In this document: positions 13,947-22,829 of the stretch, one piece after another
Layout of the letters: each line of letters begins with the position of its first letter
Position numbering within the stretch: position 1 is the stretch's first letter
Virus record (IMG/VR): IMGVR_UViG_3300047564_002270
Location: 62,001 to 126,000 of that record
Reading direction: 5' to 3' (one strand)
DNA from: a virus
Length of the DNA stretch: 64,000 nt
The notes under the pieces: model-generated
The model's database searches: none
What the model was told of the DNA's origin: nothing
Seen by the model: only the letters and a program-made list of their open reading frames with translations
Program-made: the position numbers and the translations under genes

Positions 13947-14849
13947 ATGGCAGGAGCTGTAGCAAAGCATTATAAGGTTTCGGAAATTAAACAGAAATTG
14001 ATGCGTCCGGCGCAGACTTCTGTTTATATGGTAGAGGTATTAACAAACCAAGAAGTAAATTCTTTTGTTTCTAGTAGGGGAGTCAGTGAAGCAAAACATA
14101 AGGAAATGATTAATCTTGCTTGCTGTGAAGCAAGTCTTCCTGGATCTAGTTTGGCAACGCACGAAGTCAATAATGACTATCACGGATCAACTGAAAAAAT
14201 GGTGTATCGTAGAATTTACGATGACACTATTGATTTAACTTTTTATGTTGATCACGAATATGCAGTTATTAAATATTTTCAGGGATGGATGAATTTTATT
14301 GTTGGTGAAGGGGAATACTTTGACTCAGAGCAGTATAAAAATCCTGCAACTTTTTACAGGATGCAATACCCAAAAAGATACAAGAGTGACATTCACCTTA
14401 TTAAATTTGAAAAAGATGTAAGTAAAAATTCTCCCAGACCCACACTTCAATATCAATTTATACAAGCATTTCCGATCAATATTGTTTCTACTCCAATATC
14501 TTATGATGCAAGTGATTTATTAAAAATTACGGTTTCTTTCTCTTATGTTAGATATGTAATGACTAATAGATTTAGTCCTTCTTATCAAAATGCAACTAGA
14601 AAACCTCCCATCATAGGAGATCCTGCAGATCAAGCTACAATAAATGGAAATGCTTTAAGTCCTTCATATCCATTTACTCCAGGAGTTCCTGAGTTATATA
14701 CTGCAGCAACAGCATTGGACGGAACTCAATATTTTAATGACAGTTTAAGAAATTTACCAAATACATTTTCTTATAACTCTTTTGCACCAAATGCTTCTAA
14801 CCCACCAGTTGGTGATTTTGGAACTCCTGGAACCTCTGGATTTGCGTAA
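13947..14849 (+). CDS. 54: Tail tube initiator gp54
   Basis: This 300-residue protein (T4 gp54: about 320) has a tail-tube-like fold signature, FPINIVSTPISYDASDLLKI followed by TVSFSYVRYVM, preceded by DDTIDLTFYVDHEY. gp54 binds gp48 and nucleates tube polymerisation by gp19. A tube subunit itself would be shorter, about 160-200 residues, and gp54 pairs by context with gp48. The last 80 residues are Pro/Asn-rich and probably flexible. It is transcribed away from gp4. No clear plus-strand late element was found in the short gap. Confidence 0.8.
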   Translation: MAGAVAKHYKVSEIKQKLMRPAQTSVYMVEVLTNQEVNSFVSSRGVSEAKHKEMINLACCEASLPGSSLATHEVNNDYHGSTEKMVYRRIYDDTIDLTFYVDHEYAVIKYFQGWMNFIVGEGEYFDSEQYKNPATFYRMQYPKRYKSDIHLIKFEKDVSKNSPRPTLQYQFIQAFPINIVSTPISYDASDLLKITVSFSYVRYVMTNRFSPSYQNATRKPPIIGDPADQATINGNALSPSYPFTPGVPELYTAATALDGTQYFNDSLRNLPNTFSYNSFAPNASNPPVGDFGTPGTSGFA

Positions 14850-14880: not shown

Positions 14881-15600
14881 ATGCCTTTACCAAAGATTTC
14901 TACTCCGACTTATGAGTTGGAATTGCCATCAACTGGAGAATCAATTAGATATAGACCGTTCTTAGTAAGAGAAGAAAAACTTCTTGTTCTTGCCCTTGAG
15001 AGTGAAAACACTAAAGATATTACGAATGCAATTAAAACAGTTATTAAAAATTGCATTCAATCAAAAGGAATTAAAGTTGAAATTCTTCCTACATTTGATA
15101 TTGAATATTTGTTCCTTAACATTCGTGGAAAATCAGTTGGCGAAGAAATAGAAGTTAATTTGATTTGCCCAGATGATAGTGAAACAACAGTATTAACTAA
15201 GATTGCTGTTGATGATATTCAGGTTAAAAAGAATGAAGAGCATACTAATCAAATTAAGATTGATGATAATTTGATGATGGAAATGAAGTATCCATCATTA
15301 GATCAGTTCATTAAGAGTAATTTTGATTTTTCTTCTGGAAACAATATGGATCAATCTTTTGATTTGATTGTTTCTTGTATTGCTAAGATTTATAACGCAG
15401 AAGAAGTTTGGTCTTCATCAGATGTGACTAAGAAAGAACTTGTCGATTTCTTAGATCAAATGAACTCATCACAATTTAAACAAATTGAAAAGTTCTTTGA
15501 GACTATGCCTAAACTTTCCCACGAAGTTAAGATTACAAATCCAAATACAAATGTTGAAAGCACTGTTGTTCTTGAGGGGCTATCGAGTTTTTTCGCGTAG
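14881..15600 (+). CDS. 26: Baseplate hub / tail chaperone gp26
   Basis: This 239-residue protein has the gp26-type pattern: MPLPKISTPTYELELPSTGE, then IRYRPFLVREEKLLVLALES and LPTFDIEYLFLNIRGKSVGE. T4 gp26 is needed for hub assembly and is related to tail assembly chaperones that precede tape-measure genes in many phages. The ribosome-binding site is AGGAGATT just before the ATG. Near the 3' end the codons AGT TTT TTC contain the slippery heptamer T TTT TTC (15588-15594). A -1 shift there would bypass the TAG and run in frame into the following 57-codon ORF, giving a 298-residue fusion. Confidence 0.88.
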   Translation: MPLPKISTPTYELELPSTGESIRYRPFLVREEKLLVLALESENTKDITNAIKTVIKNCIQSKGIKVEILPTFDIEYLFLNIRGKSVGEEIEVNLICPDDSETTVLTKIAVDDIQVKKNEEHTNQIKIDDNLMMEMKYPSLDQFIKSNFDFSSGNNMDQSFDLIVSCIAKIYNAEEVWSSSDVTKKELVDFLDQMNSSQFKQIEKFFETMPKLSHEVKITNPNTNVESTVVLEGLSSFFA

Positions 15601-15618
15601 CAATGGTCCATATGGACC
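15588..15618 (+). promoter_or_regulatory. Programmed -1 frameshift site (slippery heptamer plus hairpin)
   Basis: The heptamer T TTT TTC (15588-15594) is in the correct zero frame of gp26 four codons before its end. Ten bases later GGTCC (15605-15609) and GGACC (15614-15618) form a hairpin with loop ATAT. After a -1 shift the codons CGC GTA GCA lead in frame to the ATG at 15603 with no stop. Confidence 0.75.
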
Positions 15619-15776
15619 TTGAGAATTATTATAAATTAAATTTTGCTTTGATGCAGTATCATAAATACTCATTGACCGAAATTGAAAACTTGATGCCTTG
15701 GGAACGTGATGTTTATGTTATGCTTCTAGAGCAGCACTTAGAAGAAGAAAGACAAAAACAACAGCAAAAACAGTAA
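15603..15776 (+). CDS. 51: gp51-like tail assembly chaperone extension
   Basis: This 57-residue ORF holds a compact helical unit (LNFALMQYHKYSLTEIENLM then PWERDVYVMLLEQH) and a Gln-rich tail. It sits where T4-like cyanophage maps place gp51. The pattern of a hydrophobic helix, Ser, Glu, Met-Pro, Trp and Glu-Arg resembles the second, frameshifted ORF of tail chaperone pairs such as P2 E/E'. No Shine-Dalgarno sequence precedes 15603, and its ATG lies at the foot of a hairpin, so it is probably made mainly as a -1 frameshift extension of gp26. T4 gp51 itself is much longer (about 249 residues), so the symbol is tentative. Confidence 0.72.
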   Translation: MVHMDLENYYKLNFALMQYHKYSLTEIENLMPWERDVYVMLLEQHLEEERQKQQQKQ

Positions 15777-18569
15777 ATGGCAGTCGAGGATCCTACTAAA
15801 AAACAAATAGAAGAAGTAGATCCAGAAGTTGCCAAAATTCTTGGGTTGGAGGATAACTTTGACTTAGAATATGATGAGTATATGCAATTGTTGAGAGAAA
15901 CAATTGTTAAAAGTTCCTTCGATGAAAAGTCAAAGTTATCTGAAGATGATCTAGCAAAACTTGCTAACGAAAGAAAGAGAATAAGAGATCTTAAAGGATC
16001 TAAATTTACTGCAGCAAAAAAAGGAATAAATGTAGACTCTTTTTTTAATAAGAAACCTCAAGGTCAAGGGACAAATCAAAAACCCGTCACAGATCCTGCA
16101 AAGTTATTATCAGGATCTGGAGGTGCTTTAGCAAATTACCAACCACCAGAACCTGAACAAGAACAAGAAAAACAGGTAGATAATAATTCAAAAAAGATTG
16201 GGGAAATAGAAAAGTTTTTAAATGGATCTCTACTTGATATTGTAAAAGAAATTAGAGGATTGACCGAGAGTATCCTTTCTATATTACAAAAACAGTCTTC
16301 TGCTGATAAAAAGGGATCGGAATTATCAAGAAGAGAAAGAGAGAAGACTGGAAAGGAAGGTAAGGAGAAAGATTTAGAAGGCAAGAAGGAAGAGAAAAAG
16401 GGTTTAGGACTAATCAATAAAATTCTTAAACCCTTTACGAGTATCTTTGATACGATTAAGAATTTTATAATGATGGTTCTTCTTGGGTCTTTGGTTAATT
16501 GGTTATTTACTGTCTTACAAAATCCAATGACATTACTCAAACCTATACAGGGTTTGATTGATGGTATAACTGGTTTCTTTAATACAGTTATACAATTTAT
16601 TGATAAGATGGTTGTTCAACCGGTGAGAAATTTTATTGATGCAATTAATTCTGCATTGAATGGTTTTATTGGTCTTTTGAATGGTGCATTAAAAATGCTT
16701 CCGGGTTCCCCTCAAATAGGGTCTGCGAATATTCCTAACATTCCACAAGCTCCAGAACTTCAAGCACCCAATATTACTGGTGAACCAAAGAACCCAGAAC
16801 CTAAACCAACTGCAGGTCCACCAATTAATCTTAAATTTACTGGTGGAGAAGTTAGACCTCCAAAAGTAGTAAAAAAAGAAACTGGTGGATCTATTCCAGG
16901 AAATGCAGCAGATAGGAAAAAATTATCTTTTAATGATACAGTTTCAAGAGAGGGTGGAAATGTATCTTCTAAAACTACTTCATTCAATGTTTCTGGTCTA
17001 GGTCCCGATAAACATCTAACTGCTCTTTCAACTGGAGAATATGTATTAAAGAAAGGTGCTGCTGATTGGTTAGGAGGTCCAGTATATCTTGATAATATCA
17101 ATAAGATGTTTGGTGGAACAACTGAAAGAAAAGTTGCTAATCTTGGAGATATTAAAATTGAAGCGAAGTCGACTGGAGGTCAGATTGGTGGATCTAGTGG
17201 TTCCAATGGTGCTAGAGGATCTAGTGGTTCCAGTGGTTCCAATGGTGCTAGAGGATCTAGTGGTGCTAGTAGTTCTGGAGGTTCTTCAAATGGATTTAAG
17301 ATTGGTGATAGAATTTTTAGCCCGACAGAATATAGTAAGAATGTAATATCAACTCGTTATATTACAGTTGGTAAAAATCCTCCAAAATCATATGTTCTTG
17401 GATATGTTAGAGATAGTGCAAGTAGTGGAAAATATACTATTAAAATGGTCAATAAACTAGTGTCTTCTGCTGGATTGGGAAAGTTAGTTGGAAAAAGCGA
17501 CGAATTGACCGGAGTTCTTCCATCAAGTCCAGAAGGACAATCTATTTTAAAATCTGCAAACGTTGCTGATTATTTTAGAACTGTAGTTGGCACTGCAAAA
17601 ATGTTTAAACTCGAATTGAAATATGATAAAGATGCGGATATTCAATATTGGTATAATCAAGCATATCAAACACATTATAATGATTGGAAGGATAAATTAG
17701 GAGTATCTGATGAAAAGGCTAAGCAGATGGCATCAGTTGCTGCTGCTGAATTTGCAATATCTAAATCTAAAGGATCTAAAGGGTCTTGGTTGCCTGGATC
17801 ACCACAATCCAAAGCTCCTGAGTCTTTAAGATATCAAGGTGTTGAAACTGATAATCTATCGGGACCTGCATCTGCAGACTCTCCGGCAGCAGATGCTCCT
17901 AAAGACGATAAAACATTAAAATTTGATGATGCCGCTTTAACCTCAGGAACAATCTATGGGGACCCTGCAAAAGACTCTTATGCAAGTCCATCTACTCCAT
18001 TAATTCCTACTGGACCTGGATCTAGAAATCCTCAAAGTGAAACTGGAGAACCTAAGAAATCAACTCAATCTCAACCATCAACACCATTAATTCCTTCTTC
18101 ACCACCATCATCTTCATCATTATCTGAAGACCAACTTAATAAAATGTCGGTGGATCAATTGAGTAAAATGTTAGATCCATCAAAAGTTGGAGCATCTAAT
18201 CCAGCAGTTTTTGAAGCTGCTACAAGAGCTAGAGAAGAGGGTAAAGCACAAGGTCTTACTGGGGAAGTATTAGAAAAGAAAGTATTAATAGCATCTATTT
18301 TAGCAAAGAAAGGTGGAGCATCATCTGCTGTTTCTTCACCTACAACTTCTCCTTCTATAGCACCTGGGAAACCACCTAATATACCAGGTGTTCCCGAAAG
18401 TCAACCAAGTGTATCTATGTTGCCACTACCATCTGTTGGGAAAGGAGGAAACCCACAATCAGGAATGACAAAAACTGGATCAACACCTGTTGTTTATTTT
18501 AATTCTTATGACAGTAGTGAGGCTGCTATAATTACAACCGCAGCTCTTTATAACATCTGGGGAATGTAG
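15777..18569 (+). CDS. Large tape-measure-like tail protein 1
   Basis: This 930-residue protein directly follows the chaperone ORF (TAA then ATG), the usual place of a tape measure. An acidic helical start (residues 1-80) leads to charged helices (155-215) and a hydrophobic segment (MMVLLGSLVNWLF, about 232-245). The middle has STGEYVLKKGAADWLGGPVY (about 420-440), a pattern seen in tail tape proteins, then Gly/Ser repeats (GSSGSNGARGSSG, about 465-500). LTSGTIYGDPAK (about 721-732) recurs twice in the next protein. The C-terminal 200 residues are Pro/Ser-rich. It shares helix and membrane features with the 1415-residue neighbour, so the two look like duplicated genes. Confidence 0.65.
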   Translation: MAVEDPTKKQIEEVDPEVAKILGLEDNFDLEYDEYMQLLRETIVKSSFDEKSKLSEDDLAKLANERKRIRDLKGSKFTAAKKGINVDSFFNKKPQGQGTNQKPVTDPAKLLSGSGGALANYQPPEPEQEQEKQVDNNSKKIGEIEKFLNGSLLDIVKEIRGLTESILSILQKQSSADKKGSELSRREREKTGKEGKEKDLEGKKEEKKGLGLINKILKPFTSIFDTIKNFIMMVLLGSLVNWLFTVLQNPMTLLKPIQGLIDGITGFFNTVIQFIDKMVVQPVRNFIDAINSALNGFIGLLNGALKMLPGSPQIGSANIPNIPQAPELQAPNITGEPKNPEPKPTAGPPINLKFTGGEVRPPKVVKKETGGSIPGNAADRKKLSFNDTVSREGGNVSSKTTSFNVSGLGPDKHLTALSTGEYVLKKGAADWLGGPVYLDNINKMFGGTTERKVANLGDIKIEAKSTGGQIGGSSGSNGARGSSGSSGSNGARGSSGASSSGGSSNGFKIGDRIFSPTEYSKNVISTRYITVGKNPPKSYVLGYVRDSASSGKYTIKMVNKLVSSAGLGKLVGKSDELTGVLPSSPEGQSILKSANVADYFRTVVGTAKMFKLELKYDKDADIQYWYNQAYQTHYNDWKDKLGVSDEKAKQMASVAAAEFAISKSKGSKGSWLPGSPQSKAPESLRYQGVETDNLSGPASADSPAADAPKDDKTLKFDDAALTSGTIYGDPAKDSYASPSTPLIPTGPGSRNPQSETGEPKKSTQSQPSTPLIPSSPPSSSSLSEDQLNKMSVDQLSKMLDPSKVGASNPAVFEAATRAREEGKAQGLTGEVLEKKVLIASILAKKGGASSAVSSPTTSPSIAPGKPPNIPGVPESQPSVSMLPLPSVGKGGNPQSGMTKTGSTPVVYFNSYDSSEAAIITTAALYNIWGM

Positions 18570-18581
18570 GGGGATAGATAG

Positions 18582-21500
18582 ATGCTTCCTTTATTACTTG
18601 GCGCAGGAAGAATGTTAGCAGCAGGAGCAGCAAGAGGTGCTGCTACAGGGGCAGCAAGAGGAGCAATTGTTGGAGGAATTAAAGAGACTGTAAAGAAAGG
18701 TATTGTTGATGGGGCAAAGAAAAAAGCGACCTCATTTATTAAGAAAAAAACTACCAAAGCTAATAAGAAAATATCTCCAGATAAATTAATACCAAAAGGA
18801 AGTAAGGGTAGTGGCACTGGAGCATTAGTTCGTCGTAAGTCATCTGCAATTGTTCGTCGTCCAACTTCTGCTCTTGTTAAACCCGTCGATAAAGAAACTG
18901 GGGTAGAAGAAAAGCAACAAAAAGAAGAACAAAAACCCTTTGATGGTGGAGATCTAATCAAGGAATTAATTGCAATCAAAGAAACTTTGATTAAAATTAA
19001 AGGAGTTTTTGGATCTAATTTAGCAAATACTTTAAGAAATCAAAGAAGTCAAAGAATTCTTAGAAGTAAAGAAAAGGCATCTAAGAGAGAGGCAGAATTA
19101 GAGAAAAAAGGTCCTGAGAAAAAAGGTAAGATATTAGAGGGTCCTAAAAAGAAACTAAGTTTCTTTGATATGATTTGGAATTATATTAGTAATGTTTTAT
19201 TAGGAAGTCTTGCAAATTTCTTATTTAATTATGTTCCTCAGATTATTAAAATGTTTGGGGAAATTGCTAAAGGTCTTGAAAATCCTTTACAGCAATTAAG
19301 ATTAGGAATAATTGCTCTCACAACTTTATTCCCGAAACAAATTAAGTTTCTTGCTAAACTGACAGGGATGATCATTGGTCCCCCTGCAAGATTGATAGGA
19401 AAACTTTTATTAAAAGCAGGAGGAGTCGCTAAGAACTTATTTAAGAAAGCAGGAACTCTTGTTTTTAATTTAATTAAGGGCCCTCTTACAAATTTAGTAA
19501 AGAGAATTGGTGGAGAAGCATTAGAGCAAGGTATAAAATCAACTGCTAAAGGTGCTGTTAAATTTGCAGGAAAAGCAGCAGCAAAAGCAGGTACTGCTAT
19601 AGGAACTAGTGCTAGATTTTTAAAACGATTTAGAGCATTTTCTAAAATGTTTAAAAGAGTTCCAGTTATTGGGGCTTTGATTGGCATTGGTATTGATATG
19701 GCAATGGGAGAGCCATTGGATCGTGCTATTATAGGTGCTGCCGGTGCTAGTTTAGGTTCAGCAATTGGTGGATTAATAGGACAAGGTGTTATTCCAATTC
19801 CTGGTCTTGGTGCTCTTGTTGGTGCTGGTATTGGTGGTGCTATTGGTGATTGGGGGGCAAAAGAAATTTATAAAAATTTGTCAGGAAGAACTGGTCCAGT
19901 TGATAAGGCAAACCCAATTCCCGTTGAACGTCGTTATGCTGCAGGTAGAGTTGGTGGTGGTTCTAGATCTATGCCAAGTAGGACTACCAATATACAAGCA
20001 AAACCTGCAGTAGCAACAACTAAAGTTTCTGCCGATGTTGAAAGTAAGGCAAAGGAAGATATTCTTAAGGATGAGAAAAGTTTAAACAGATTTAAATCTC
20101 TCTCATCAACTTTTGCAGGAACTCCATTTATTGGTCAGTTATTGAAGATGGGTATTGATATTGGAATGGGAGCACAAGTTCAAAAGACACAGACTGATGC
20201 TGCTGCTCAAGACCTTGGATTTACTATTGGTAAAGCATTAGAAGATGATGAGTTTTCAGTTCCTGGTTTAAACAAAAGAATTATTGGACCTTTATCTAAG
20301 AATTTAACTGAGTGGGCAAAGAAAAGAATATTTTATGAAGTAAAATCAAGAGAAGGATTGTTCCCATCAATCGAAAAATCAAAAGACCAGGCAGGTAAAG
20401 CAGGTGAGGGTGGACAGCAACCAGCAACTGATGGTGGAGGAGTTAATATACAGGGAGGAGATGCTGATTTTTGGACACTGGCAGCAGTAGTTTCTAGAGA
20501 GGATGGTGATCCACAAGGACAGGCAGACGTTGCGCAGTCAATTTATAATAGACTTGCATCCGGTGCTTATGGTGGAAAAACTATAAAAGATTTAATTACC
20601 AGAACCTGGCAGTATGAACCAACTTGGAGATATCCAGGTGGTGCAACTAAAGGAAGAGGTAATCCTAATCCAGAATGGTTTAATATAAAAGATTTAGCTA
20701 GCGCAGCTGCTGCGACAGGAACTTCAGAATTCCACGTTTCTCAAGCTGCTAAAGCTATTCTAGATGCAAACCTTCAAAAAAATTCAAAAGAATTTGTTCA
20801 AGGAAGAACTGATTTTACTGGATACGCTAAATCTGCTAGAAGAGGTCAAATCCAAAGAAAGAGTGGTGACAATTATTTTGGATGGGACTTTAATTATTCT
20901 GGTAATAAAATAGCATTAGTCCCCAATTTCAATGCATCTGCATCATCTTCTTCTGGAGGTGGTGGAGGAGGAAAAAATGAACCTAACGTAGCTCAAAAAG
21001 ACAAAAAAATATTCTTACATTGGACTGCTGGCGGATATAATGATAATCCTAGTGGATTTGGATATAATGCTGTTTTTGATGGTAGTGGAAAGAAACAACA
21101 AATTCGCCCATATAATCAGGCAGGAGAGCATACTTGGCGTAGAAATGCAAATTCTGTAGGACTAGCAGTTGCTGCTATGGGTGGAAAAACTGATCCTTGG
21201 AGTGTTCCTCCTAAAGCAAATCAAATTTCAGCAATGACTGCTGAAGCTGCTAAAATTGCTAAATCTTGGGGTTGGAAAGCATCTGATGTTAATTCCAAAA
21301 ATATTATGACTCACGCTGAGATTGCAAAGATAGATGGTTATGGACCTGGATCTGGTGATAAACAAATGAGGTGGGATTTCCTTCAAACGGAAAAAGGAAA
21401 ACCTGATTGGTCTGGAGGAAATGAACTTCGTAGTAAGATTAAATCTTCTATGGGAGGTGGATATGGTTTTAATCATCAGCATATTGTTCCATCTTTTGCT

Positions 21501-22829
21501 ATGGGTGGAAATCACGTAGTAACTTCATCAATGGGGATGAGAAATTTTGCTCTATCTCCCGGTATGCATATGGGAGTTGACATTGCGGGATCCACTGGAG
21601 AACCTTTGCAAGCATTTACTGATGGAACTGTTGAAGCAACCTCTCCACCATCACCTTCTGCTGGTTATGGAAATTGGGTAAGTTGGATTGATAGCAATGG
21701 TATTGGGCATCTCTATGGGCATATGAACAAGCCTCCTTTTGTAAGAGCGGGTCAAAAGGTAAAGAAAGGAACTGTTCTTGGAGAACTTGGAAGCACTGGA
21801 AAATCTTCAGGACCTCACTTACATTGGGAAGCAGCAACAAATCCACAAGATACTGGAAGACCAAAGAGTTCAGTTCTTTCAAGATTTAATCCACTATCAA
21901 GATATAACAAAGAAGCTCCTTTTGGTGGAACTATTAAATCCGATGGTTCTGTTCCAGAAAGTTCAGGAACTTCATCCAACCACGATGCAGCACCTGGTTC
22001 AACTTCCCCAGGAACTTCGAGTTCAAATCAATTATCTTTCTCTGATAGTGCTCTGACTTCAGGAACAATCTATGGAGATCCTGCTAAGGGTGGTGGATCT
22101 GGAACTAGAGGTAAAATCGTAGAATACTTAACTGGAGATCCTAATAGTCCTAACATTGCAGGAAAAGCATATGATAGGGCAGGACACGGAACACCTGGCA
22201 ATTATCACGATCACGTTGCCTTTAATGATCGTCAGACTGCAATAGATGCTTATAAATTCTTTAAATCAAAAGGTGTAGATGTCACTGAATTTAAAGGATT
22301 TGGTAGTGTTGGTGGCCACGCAATAAATTCTTATCATTATTCCGGTTTAGCATTTGATATTCCAGGATATCAATGGGGTGGAAGTGGTCCTGTTGGTGAT
22401 AAAGATTATGCTGGGTCAAGAAAAGTTAGAGCACTTCTAAATGAATTTTTTGGAGGATCAATACCTGTTGGAAGTGGACCTCCTCCTTCAGATATTGCTC
22501 AAGGATCTCAACCAAATGCAGATGGATCGAATAATGGAGGATTACAGTTCTCTGAATCTGATTTAACTTCGGGAACAATCTATGGAGATCCATCAAAAGA
22601 ATTCTATAAAAAGGAGATGGCAAATATTGATCAACTCAAGCAAAAACCATCTTATGATCAGAGTGGGAAACAAAGTATAGTTATGTTGCCACCTATGCAG
22701 GCACAATCTGCACCAGGACAATCTGGTGGTGGTAGGGGTATTTCACCTATTTCTGGTGGGTTAAATAATAAAGAAGTTTCCGCGCTTTCTGTCCGTCAAA
22801 TTCTAGCATCAGCACTTTATAAAATTTAA
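18582..22829 (+). CDS. Tape-measure-like tail protein 2 with four wall-hydrolase-like domains
   Basis: This 1415-residue protein has an Ala/Gly/Lys-rich start, a hydrophobic segment (NVLLGSLANFLF, near 205) and glycine-zipper regions (about 360-430). Four enzyme-like domains then follow. SleB-like hydrolase spans about 630-770 (E640 in SREDG, SIYNR). Amidase_2-like spans about 800-960 (H813 in FLHWTAGG, H911 in MTHAEIAK, D926). M23 endopeptidase spans about 985-1090 (H996 and D1000, H1047, H1079-x-H1081). An M15-like domain spans about 1175-1310 (H1252 and D1259 in SYHYSGLAFD). The motif LTSGTIYGDP brackets the M15-like part (near 1158 and 1328). The role is probably tail length control plus peptidoglycan penetration during DNA entry. 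The M15 third ligand is not evident. Confidence 0.75.
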   Translation: MLPLLLGAGRMLAAGAARGAATGAARGAIVGGIKETVKKGIVDGAKKKATSFIKKKTTKANKKISPDKLIPKGSKGSGTGALVRRKSSAIVRRPTSALVKPVDKETGVEEKQQKEEQKPFDGGDLIKELIAIKETLIKIKGVFGSNLANTLRNQRSQRILRSKEKASKREAELEKKGPEKKGKILEGPKKKLSFFDMIWNYISNVLLGSLANFLFNYVPQIIKMFGEIAKGLENPLQQLRLGIIALTTLFPKQIKFLAKLTGMIIGPPARLIGKLLLKAGGVAKNLFKKAGTLVFNLIKGPLTNLVKRIGGEALEQGIKSTAKGAVKFAGKAAAKAGTAIGTSARFLKRFRAFSKMFKRVPVIGALIGIGIDMAMGEPLDRAIIGAAGASLGSAIGGLIGQGVIPIPGLGALVGAGIGGAIGDWGAKEIYKNLSGRTGPVDKANPIPVERRYAAGRVGGGSRSMPSRTTNIQAKPAVATTKVSADVESKAKEDILKDEKSLNRFKSLSSTFAGTPFIGQLLKMGIDIGMGAQVQKTQTDAAAQDLGFTIGKALEDDEFSVPGLNKRIIGPLSKNLTEWAKKRIFYEVKSREGLFPSIEKSKDQAGKAGEGGQQPATDGGGVNIQGGDADFWTLAAVVSREDGDPQGQADVAQSIYNRLASGAYGGKTIKDLITRTWQYEPTWRYPGGATKGRGNPNPEWFNIKDLASAAAATGTSEFHVSQAAKAILDANLQKNSKEFVQGRTDFTGYAKSARRGQIQRKSGDNYFGWDFNYSGNKIALVPNFNASASSSSGGGGGGKNEPNVAQKDKKIFLHWTAGGYNDNPSGFGYNAVFDGSGKKQQIRPYNQAGEHTWRRNANSVGLAVAAMGGKTDPWSVPPKANQISAMTAEAAKIAKSWGWKASDVNSKNIMTHAEIAKIDGYGPGSGDKQMRWDFLQTEKGKPDWSGGNELRSKIKSSMGGGYGFNHQHIVPSFAMGGNHVVTSSMGMRNFALSPGMHMGVDIAGSTGEPLQAFTDGTVEATSPPSPSAGYGNWVSWIDSNGIGHLYGHMNKPPFVRAGQKVKKGTVLGELGSTGKSSGPHLHWEAATNPQDTGRPKSSVLSRFNPLSRYNKEAPFGGTIKSDGSVPESSGTSSNHDAAPGSTSPGTSSSNQLSFSDSALTSGTIYGDPAKGGGSGTRGKIVEYLTGDPNSPNIAGKAYDRAGHGTPGNYHDHVAFNDRQTAIDAYKFFKSKGVDVTEFKGFGSVGGHAINSYHYSGLAFDIPGYQWGGSGPVGDKDYAGSRKVRALLNEFFGGSIPVGSGPPPSDIAQGSQPNADGSNNGGLQFSESDLTSGTIYGDPSKEFYKKEMANIDQLKQKPSYDQSGKQSIVMLPPMQAQSAPGQSGGGRGISPISGGLNNKEVSALSVRQILASALYKI

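Follow-up and report, generated by a model that had tools for sequence, protein, structure and literature searches.

Is the small open reading frame that follows gp26 in this virus, known as gp51 in its relatives, a gene in its own right, or the end of a longer gp26 product made by ribosomes that slip into the -1 frame? The question arises in a stretch of 64,000 nucleotides, referred to as the window, which comes from a virus record of 159,419 bases with T4-superfamily, cyanophage-like character; the positions given below are those of the window, and all the features described lie on the plus strand. A programmed -1 frameshift joining gp26 to the gp51-like ORF had been proposed in the initial annotation, and this proposal is supported by the conservation of a T6N heptamer (six T and a variable last base) together with an open -1 frame in relatives.

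Gene order and the putative slip site at the end of gp26

The locus begins with a gene for a tail tube-like protein (13947..14849; Pfam Phage_TTP_2, E 1e-17; PHROG 45 tail tube, E 1.1e-32), which lies directly upstream of gp26 (14881..15600). The 239-aa gp26 product belongs to the Pfam family T4_baseplate (PF12322, E 5.4e-76) and would be the short form of a tail assembly chaperone (TAC-N). The -1 frame extension (15588..15776), the putative C-terminal domain of the long form (TAC-NC), includes the ORF called gp51 (15603-15776) and is identified by its matches to PHROG 634, PHROG 150, and T4 gp51. It is followed by a 930-aa ORF (15777..18569), likely a tape measure or tail-core protein judging from its position right after the chaperone pair and from weak PHROG tape-measure matches, the best of which has an E of 1.8e-04 and is outscored by two families of unknown function. 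A large tail protein of 1415 aa comes next (18582..22829; Pfam Peptidase_M23, E 3e-23). The same chain carries weaker matches to Amidase_2 (4.2e-05) and to the cell wall hydrolase family Hydrolase_2 (4.1e-04), both below the curated cut-off.

The gp26 frame ends AGT TTT TTC GCG TAG, and rechecking of the coordinates placed the heptamer T TTT TTC (15588..15594) in the X XXY YYZ register of the zero frame, 10 nt before the stop codon TAG (15598..15600). The -1 frame reads TTT TTT CGC GTA GCA ATG from the slip site and joins the 57-codon ORF 15603-15776 without a stop, giving a long product of 238 + 3 + 57 = 298 residues. The hairpin GGTCC-ATAT-GGACC (15605..15618) starts 10 nt past the heptamer, and the gp51-like ORF has no Shine-Dalgarno sequence, a purine-rich stretch being absent just 5′ of its ATG at 15603. 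All of these elements had been pointed out in the initial annotation and were found as described. An additional one is the Shine-Dalgarno-like stretch GAGGGG (15574..15579), which ends 8 nt before the heptamer.

Taken by itself the T6C heptamer is not rare in the window, with 39 copies on both strands where 41.3 are expected. Scanning the window's 59 non-overlapping ORFs with a length of at least 60 aa revealed 33 zero-frame T6N or A6N heptamers, and only in gp26 does the stop of the ORF follow within 15 nt. It is conservation in relatives that lifts the site far above chance.

The heptamer and the -1 frame among relatives

The survey covered 258 loci, namely the window, 244 loci from IMG/VR (two of them identical in sequence to the named records pf16 and phiAS5), and 13 named phage records; four loci, all from IMG/VR, end before the gp26 stop, so that 254 were scored. 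T6N stands in register in 253 of these, comprising the window, all 240 scorable IMG/VR loci, and 12 of the 13 named phages. The absence of a slippery heptamer, which the initial annotation had named as a result that would count against the shift, was thus seen in a single locus of the 254, a Vibrio phage. The heptamer takes the form TTTTTTC at -10 in 180 loci and TTTTTTA at -10 in 22; in 29 loci T6N stands at -31, and the rest have other last bases or distances. Conservation extends to diverged sequences: when proteins are clustered at <70% identity, 54 of the 55 clusters keep T6N, and at <50% 18 of 19 do so. Twenty-nine loci between L116 and L173 have a gp26 that is 7 codons longer, with T6N 31 nt before the stop, and a heptamer with a gp51-like -1 frame is present at 3265-3447 of L257, a contig of 233,234 bases. 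A scan of viral contigs for relatives of a Desulfovibrio phage gp26 found none.

Codon choice at the site is also unusual. Among the <70% clusters, the residue before the heptamer varies (S, D, N, or T) while its codon always ends in T, a base that elsewhere fills only 54% of the third positions of codons for S, D, N, T, and A; selection therefore acts on the nucleotides. The first F codon of the heptamer is TTT in 54 of 54 clusters compared with a 67% share of TTT among F codons elsewhere, an outcome with a probability of about 4e-10 from codon usage alone, kinship not being corrected for. At the last base of the heptamer, C (28 of these clusters) is followed in frequency by A (17), T (8), and G (1).

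The -1 frame was found to be constrained as well. Counted from the gp26 stop, it stays open for at least 35 codons in 247 of the 254 loci and reaches the contig end in the other 7, whereas the +1 frame, taken as a control, is open over this length in none. Early stops in the -1 frame, the other observation that the initial annotation had set against the shift, were accordingly seen in 0 of 254 loci, 7 of which meet the contig end.

The gp51 start codon, by contrast, is not maintained. The first ATG, GTG, or TTG occurs at codon 16 or later, or is absent, in 105 of 253 loci; when only the 246 loci with at least 40 codons present are considered, there is none before codon 16 in 101 of them, and the same holds for 35 of 53 clusters (<70%). 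The conserved block of the -1 frame is already under way at codon 16, and hence it could not be produced whole from a start of its own at or after that codon. In the window the ATG lies two bases past the gp26 stop, a position at which 53 of the 80 closest IMG/VR relatives also have it and the other 27 have CTG, TTG (in 5), CTC, or other codons. Because the starts are not conserved, ‘gp51’ has the appearance of an extension at the C-terminus of gp26; most likely, these comparisons indicate, the gp51-like ORF encodes the C-terminal part of the long form and is no gene of its own. The joining of the ORF to gp26 by a -1 shift is retained from the initial annotation, with this correction.

Existing annotations reflect the same difficulty. 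Since the block begins before any start codon, the annotated gene starts far inside the frame in S-RIM2, syn9, P-HM2, phiAS5, and OLIVR5, that is, in 5 of the survey's 12 named records that carry annotation, and a joined gp26-gp51 gene is annotated in none of these 12. Among the matches listed, which include 60 phage records out of 561 matched, a separate annotated gene underlies the match in 44. The frameshift reading would correct this standing misannotation.

The exceptions are found in Vibrio phages. Phage K469 has the gene pair but lacks T6N and shows a TAATG start overlap, and K357 and 1.255.O, chosen for their likeness to K469, likewise carry the pair without T6N and with TAATG, while Vibrio phage XZ1 has T TTT TTC. 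The presence of a TAATG pair without the heptamer in three Vibrio phages shows that an organisation suited to separate initiation also exists at this locus, and in the K469-type lineage the frameshift may have been replaced by re-initiation or by a different slip site. In these three loci (L091, L276, and L277) gp26 ends LF-x-TAA, and the TAATG start lies in the -1 frame.

Candidate stimulators and the proposed mechanism

Pairing of the hairpin arms was examined in the clade of the window, using 60 unique sequences from 81 loci, the window included. The arms are paired in 0.867 of cells, and sliding them by 1 lowers this share to 0.607 and 0.573. At one position the pair is G-C in 30 of the sequences and A-T in 9, while two of the five positions are unpaired in 16 and 17 of the 60 sequences. 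Beyond this clade, the 36 nt past the slip site fold more stably than synonymous shuffles, with a mean z of -2.32 over 140 loci (<90% identity) and of -2.0 over 54 clusters (<70%), 33 of the 54 lying below -1 and 6 above 1, compared with -0.41 and -0.53, respectively, for a control stretch inside gp26; the shuffles preserve the -1 reading and not the few zero-frame codons. The stem sequence differs between clades, and the hairpin is absent or weak in several relatives, such as S-RIM2 and phiAS5. Judged by arm pairing and folding, the 3′ hairpin downstream of the heptamer is probably a stimulator. Long stems of 9-10 bp are predicted 3′ of the slip site in L152 and L143, which belong to the group with T6N at -31.

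The stretch upstream is harder to interpret. Between -16 and -7, AAGG or GAGG is present in 128 of 140 loci (<90% identity) and in 49 of 54 clusters (<70%), against about 4% in control windows (4.3% in the cluster comparison). The motif may nevertheless be a by-product, because a conserved Glu-Gly (or similar) pair spells AAGG or GAGG anyway. Among the <70% clusters, GAG is enriched at the Glu of the motif (21/35 vs 10/32, p 0.03) and GGG is not enriched at its Gly (4/35 vs 2/32, p 0.67). Selection for a Shine-Dalgarno-like stimulator had appeared from a GGG excess in the larger set (36/139 vs 51/800, p 1.4e-10), but this excess is gone at <70% identity. A role of the upstream stretch as a 5′ stimulator is therefore possible and unproven. 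The -1 signal of E. coli dnaX consists of a purine-rich stretch, a heptamer, and a stem-loop, an order of elements that resembles that of the window. The dnaX heptamer is different and the gene unrelated, and in this comparison the hairpin of the window is deduced from conservation and its upstream element is the unproven one.

By far the best reading of the locus, and one held with high confidence, is a programmed -1 frameshift by which one gene yields a short and a long tail assembly chaperone. Most ribosomes would end at the TAG at 15598-15600 and release the 239-aa short form. A minority would slip one base back on T TTT TTC, probably aided by the downstream hairpin and possibly by the Shine-Dalgarno-like stretch upstream, and would continue in the -1 frame to make the 298-aa long form with the added C-terminal domain that is called ‘gp51’ in relatives. 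By analogy with lambda gpG/gpGT, both forms would coat the tape measure protein, recruit tail tube subunits, and then leave. The sequence elements, the conserved heptamer and open -1 frame, the homology to T4 gp26 and gp51, and a chaperone-like fold are what the analysis shows; that ribosomes slip, how often they do so, what the stimulators contribute, and that the proteins act in tail assembly are inferred.

The main competitor is translational coupling, in which gp51 would be a separate small protein made by ribosomes that end at the TAG and restart at the ATG at 15603. Some re-initiation is possible because this ATG sits two bases past the gp26 stop and 53 of 80 close relatives retain it; the three Vibrio phages with a TAATG overlap and no heptamer show such an organisation, and public records annotate gp51 as its own gene. 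On the other hand, 27 of the 80 close relatives have other codons at this position (the five with TTG could still start there), the first 15 codons lack ATG, GTG, and TTG in the 105 of 253 loci and 35 of 53 clusters noted above, and coupling leaves the T6N heptamer unaccounted for, so that as the general explanation it is improbable. Slippage of the RNA polymerase on the T run, adding or removing a base in some mRNAs to give a fused product, might be expected from six T in a row and from the seven found in some relatives, for example pf16. Six T are short for polymerase slippage, and a run that is fixed in the X XXY YYZ register but varies at its last base, with a favoured hairpin behind it, fits ribosomes better; this explanation is given even less credence than coupling. 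The least probable alternative of all is that gp26 and gp51 are unrelated neighbours and that the heptamer and the open frame coincide by chance. Although T6C is as common in the window as expected, retention of the heptamer in 54 of 55 diverged clusters and the in-frame fusion of both domains in T4 gp51 speak against coincidence, which is refuted as far as comparative data allow.

Probable chaperone identity and relation to known systems

In the favoured reading gp26 is a tail assembly chaperone, and its predicted fold is consistent with this. An AlphaFold2 model of gp26 built from 40 sequences (pLDDT 85.4, pTM 0.79) has a chaperone-like fold in residues 1-96, which align with the HK97 tail assembly chaperone 2ob9 (Z 7.9, 84 residues, 3.9 Å), 3fgx (Z 7.8), YqbN 3klu (Z 7.4), and 5ir0 (Z 5.2), the next chain reaching Z 3.2; with this structure aligner, a Z under 8 can reflect a common arrangement. 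Foldseek alone ranked 2ob9 fourth (E 1.2) and returned nothing at E ≤ 0.001 for the model against the PDB, and a profile search of the gp26 alignment against solved structures gave three matches (best E 0.13), none of them a chaperone. Overall, the modelled fold match moderately backs the chaperone identity. While the N-terminal fold of gp26 resembles 2ob9, gp26 has in addition a long second part (residues about 100-239).

Comparison with T4 clarified what the two reading frames correspond to. PF12322 matches both T4 gp26 (E 8.8e-64) and T4 gp51 (E 3.9e-52), as it does gp26 of the window. The -1 ORF matches PHROG 634, ‘baseplate hub assembly catalyst’ (E 1.3e-27), and the C-terminal end of PHROG 150 (E 6.4e-05); the same ends of PHROG 150 and 634 are matched by the final 44 aa of T4 gp51, and the T4 gp51 C-terminus aligns directly with the -1 ORF of the window (BLASTP E 9e-05, 12/36 identical). 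T4 gp26 and gp51 thus belong to one family, with T4 gp51, which carries in frame the domain found in the -1 frame of the window, built like the long form and T4 gp26 like the short. T4 has two PF12322 copies in two separate genes, whereas the record of the window and 13 others have one copy each, in the case of the window a single gene with a -1 extension; the T4-type arrangement was not found in the 159,419 bases of that record, which may be incomplete. In a T4 review gp26 and gp51 are named hub assembly chaperones (PMC3004832).

This relation casts a different light on two older observations of Sullivan et al. 2010 (PMC3037559): cyanophage gp51 has only about 20% of the length of T4 gp51, whose initial 200 residues it lacks, and Aeh1 has no gp51. 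Under the frameshift reading both would be explained, the absent part being gp26 itself, reached by frameshift.

The locus belongs to a kind that has been recognised before. Vladimirov, Gautam and Davidson, writing in Virology in 2022, reportedly found frameshifting conserved in several T4-like groups and named T4 genes 26 and 51; they are said to regard T4 gp26 as the short and gp51 as the long chaperone. Their identification of tail assembly chaperone genes in T4-like phages, some with one short and one long fused gene, is described in PMC10885494, and poly-T is referred to as a known -1 signal in TAC-N genes of T4-like phages in a 2025 paper that cites them (PMC12846349). Because such chaperones and signals are already published, the locus is a further case of frameshifted chaperones known in T4-like phages. 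The initial annotation had been unaware of any description for gp26/gp51 of cyanophages; a frameshift in the cyanophage pair is described in none of the titles and abstract openings listed by a literature search, but the kind was published in 2022 for T4-like phages, and that account may extend to cyanophages. As far as the accessible portions of published accounts of T4-like chaperones extend, they mention neither the hairpin nor how widely the site is conserved, nor the exceptions among Vibrio phages.

Outside the T4 superfamily the closest parallels are the chaperones of lambda (gpG/gpGT) and HK97 with their -1 frameshift (Xu, Hendrix and Duda 2004), which share with the window the order of tube gene, chaperone, -1 extension, and large tail protein and the position of the slip site at the short gene's 3′ end; a sequence relation to gp26 was not found in the profile search of solved structures. 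G-T frameshifting is described as widely conserved, T4 excepted (Atkins et al. 2016, PMC5009743). In the Vandenendeviridae and Andersonviridae, which are other phage families with the slip motif GTTTTT, a -1 extension also precedes the tape measure gene, is open in every relative studied there, and is usually annotated as a separate hypothetical gene (PMC12846349).

A broader generalisation can be offered only tentatively and is somewhat easier to doubt than to accept. According to it, in nearly the whole T4 superfamily outside T4-type lineages ‘gp51’ would be a frameshifted tail of gp26 set by T6N and a fast-changing hairpin, perhaps with a Shine-Dalgarno-like element in front, and the T4-type lineages would have swapped the slip for two genes and the K469-type Vibrio phages for a start-stop overlap. 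The locus would then be a natural test of exchanging a decoding event for separate genes.
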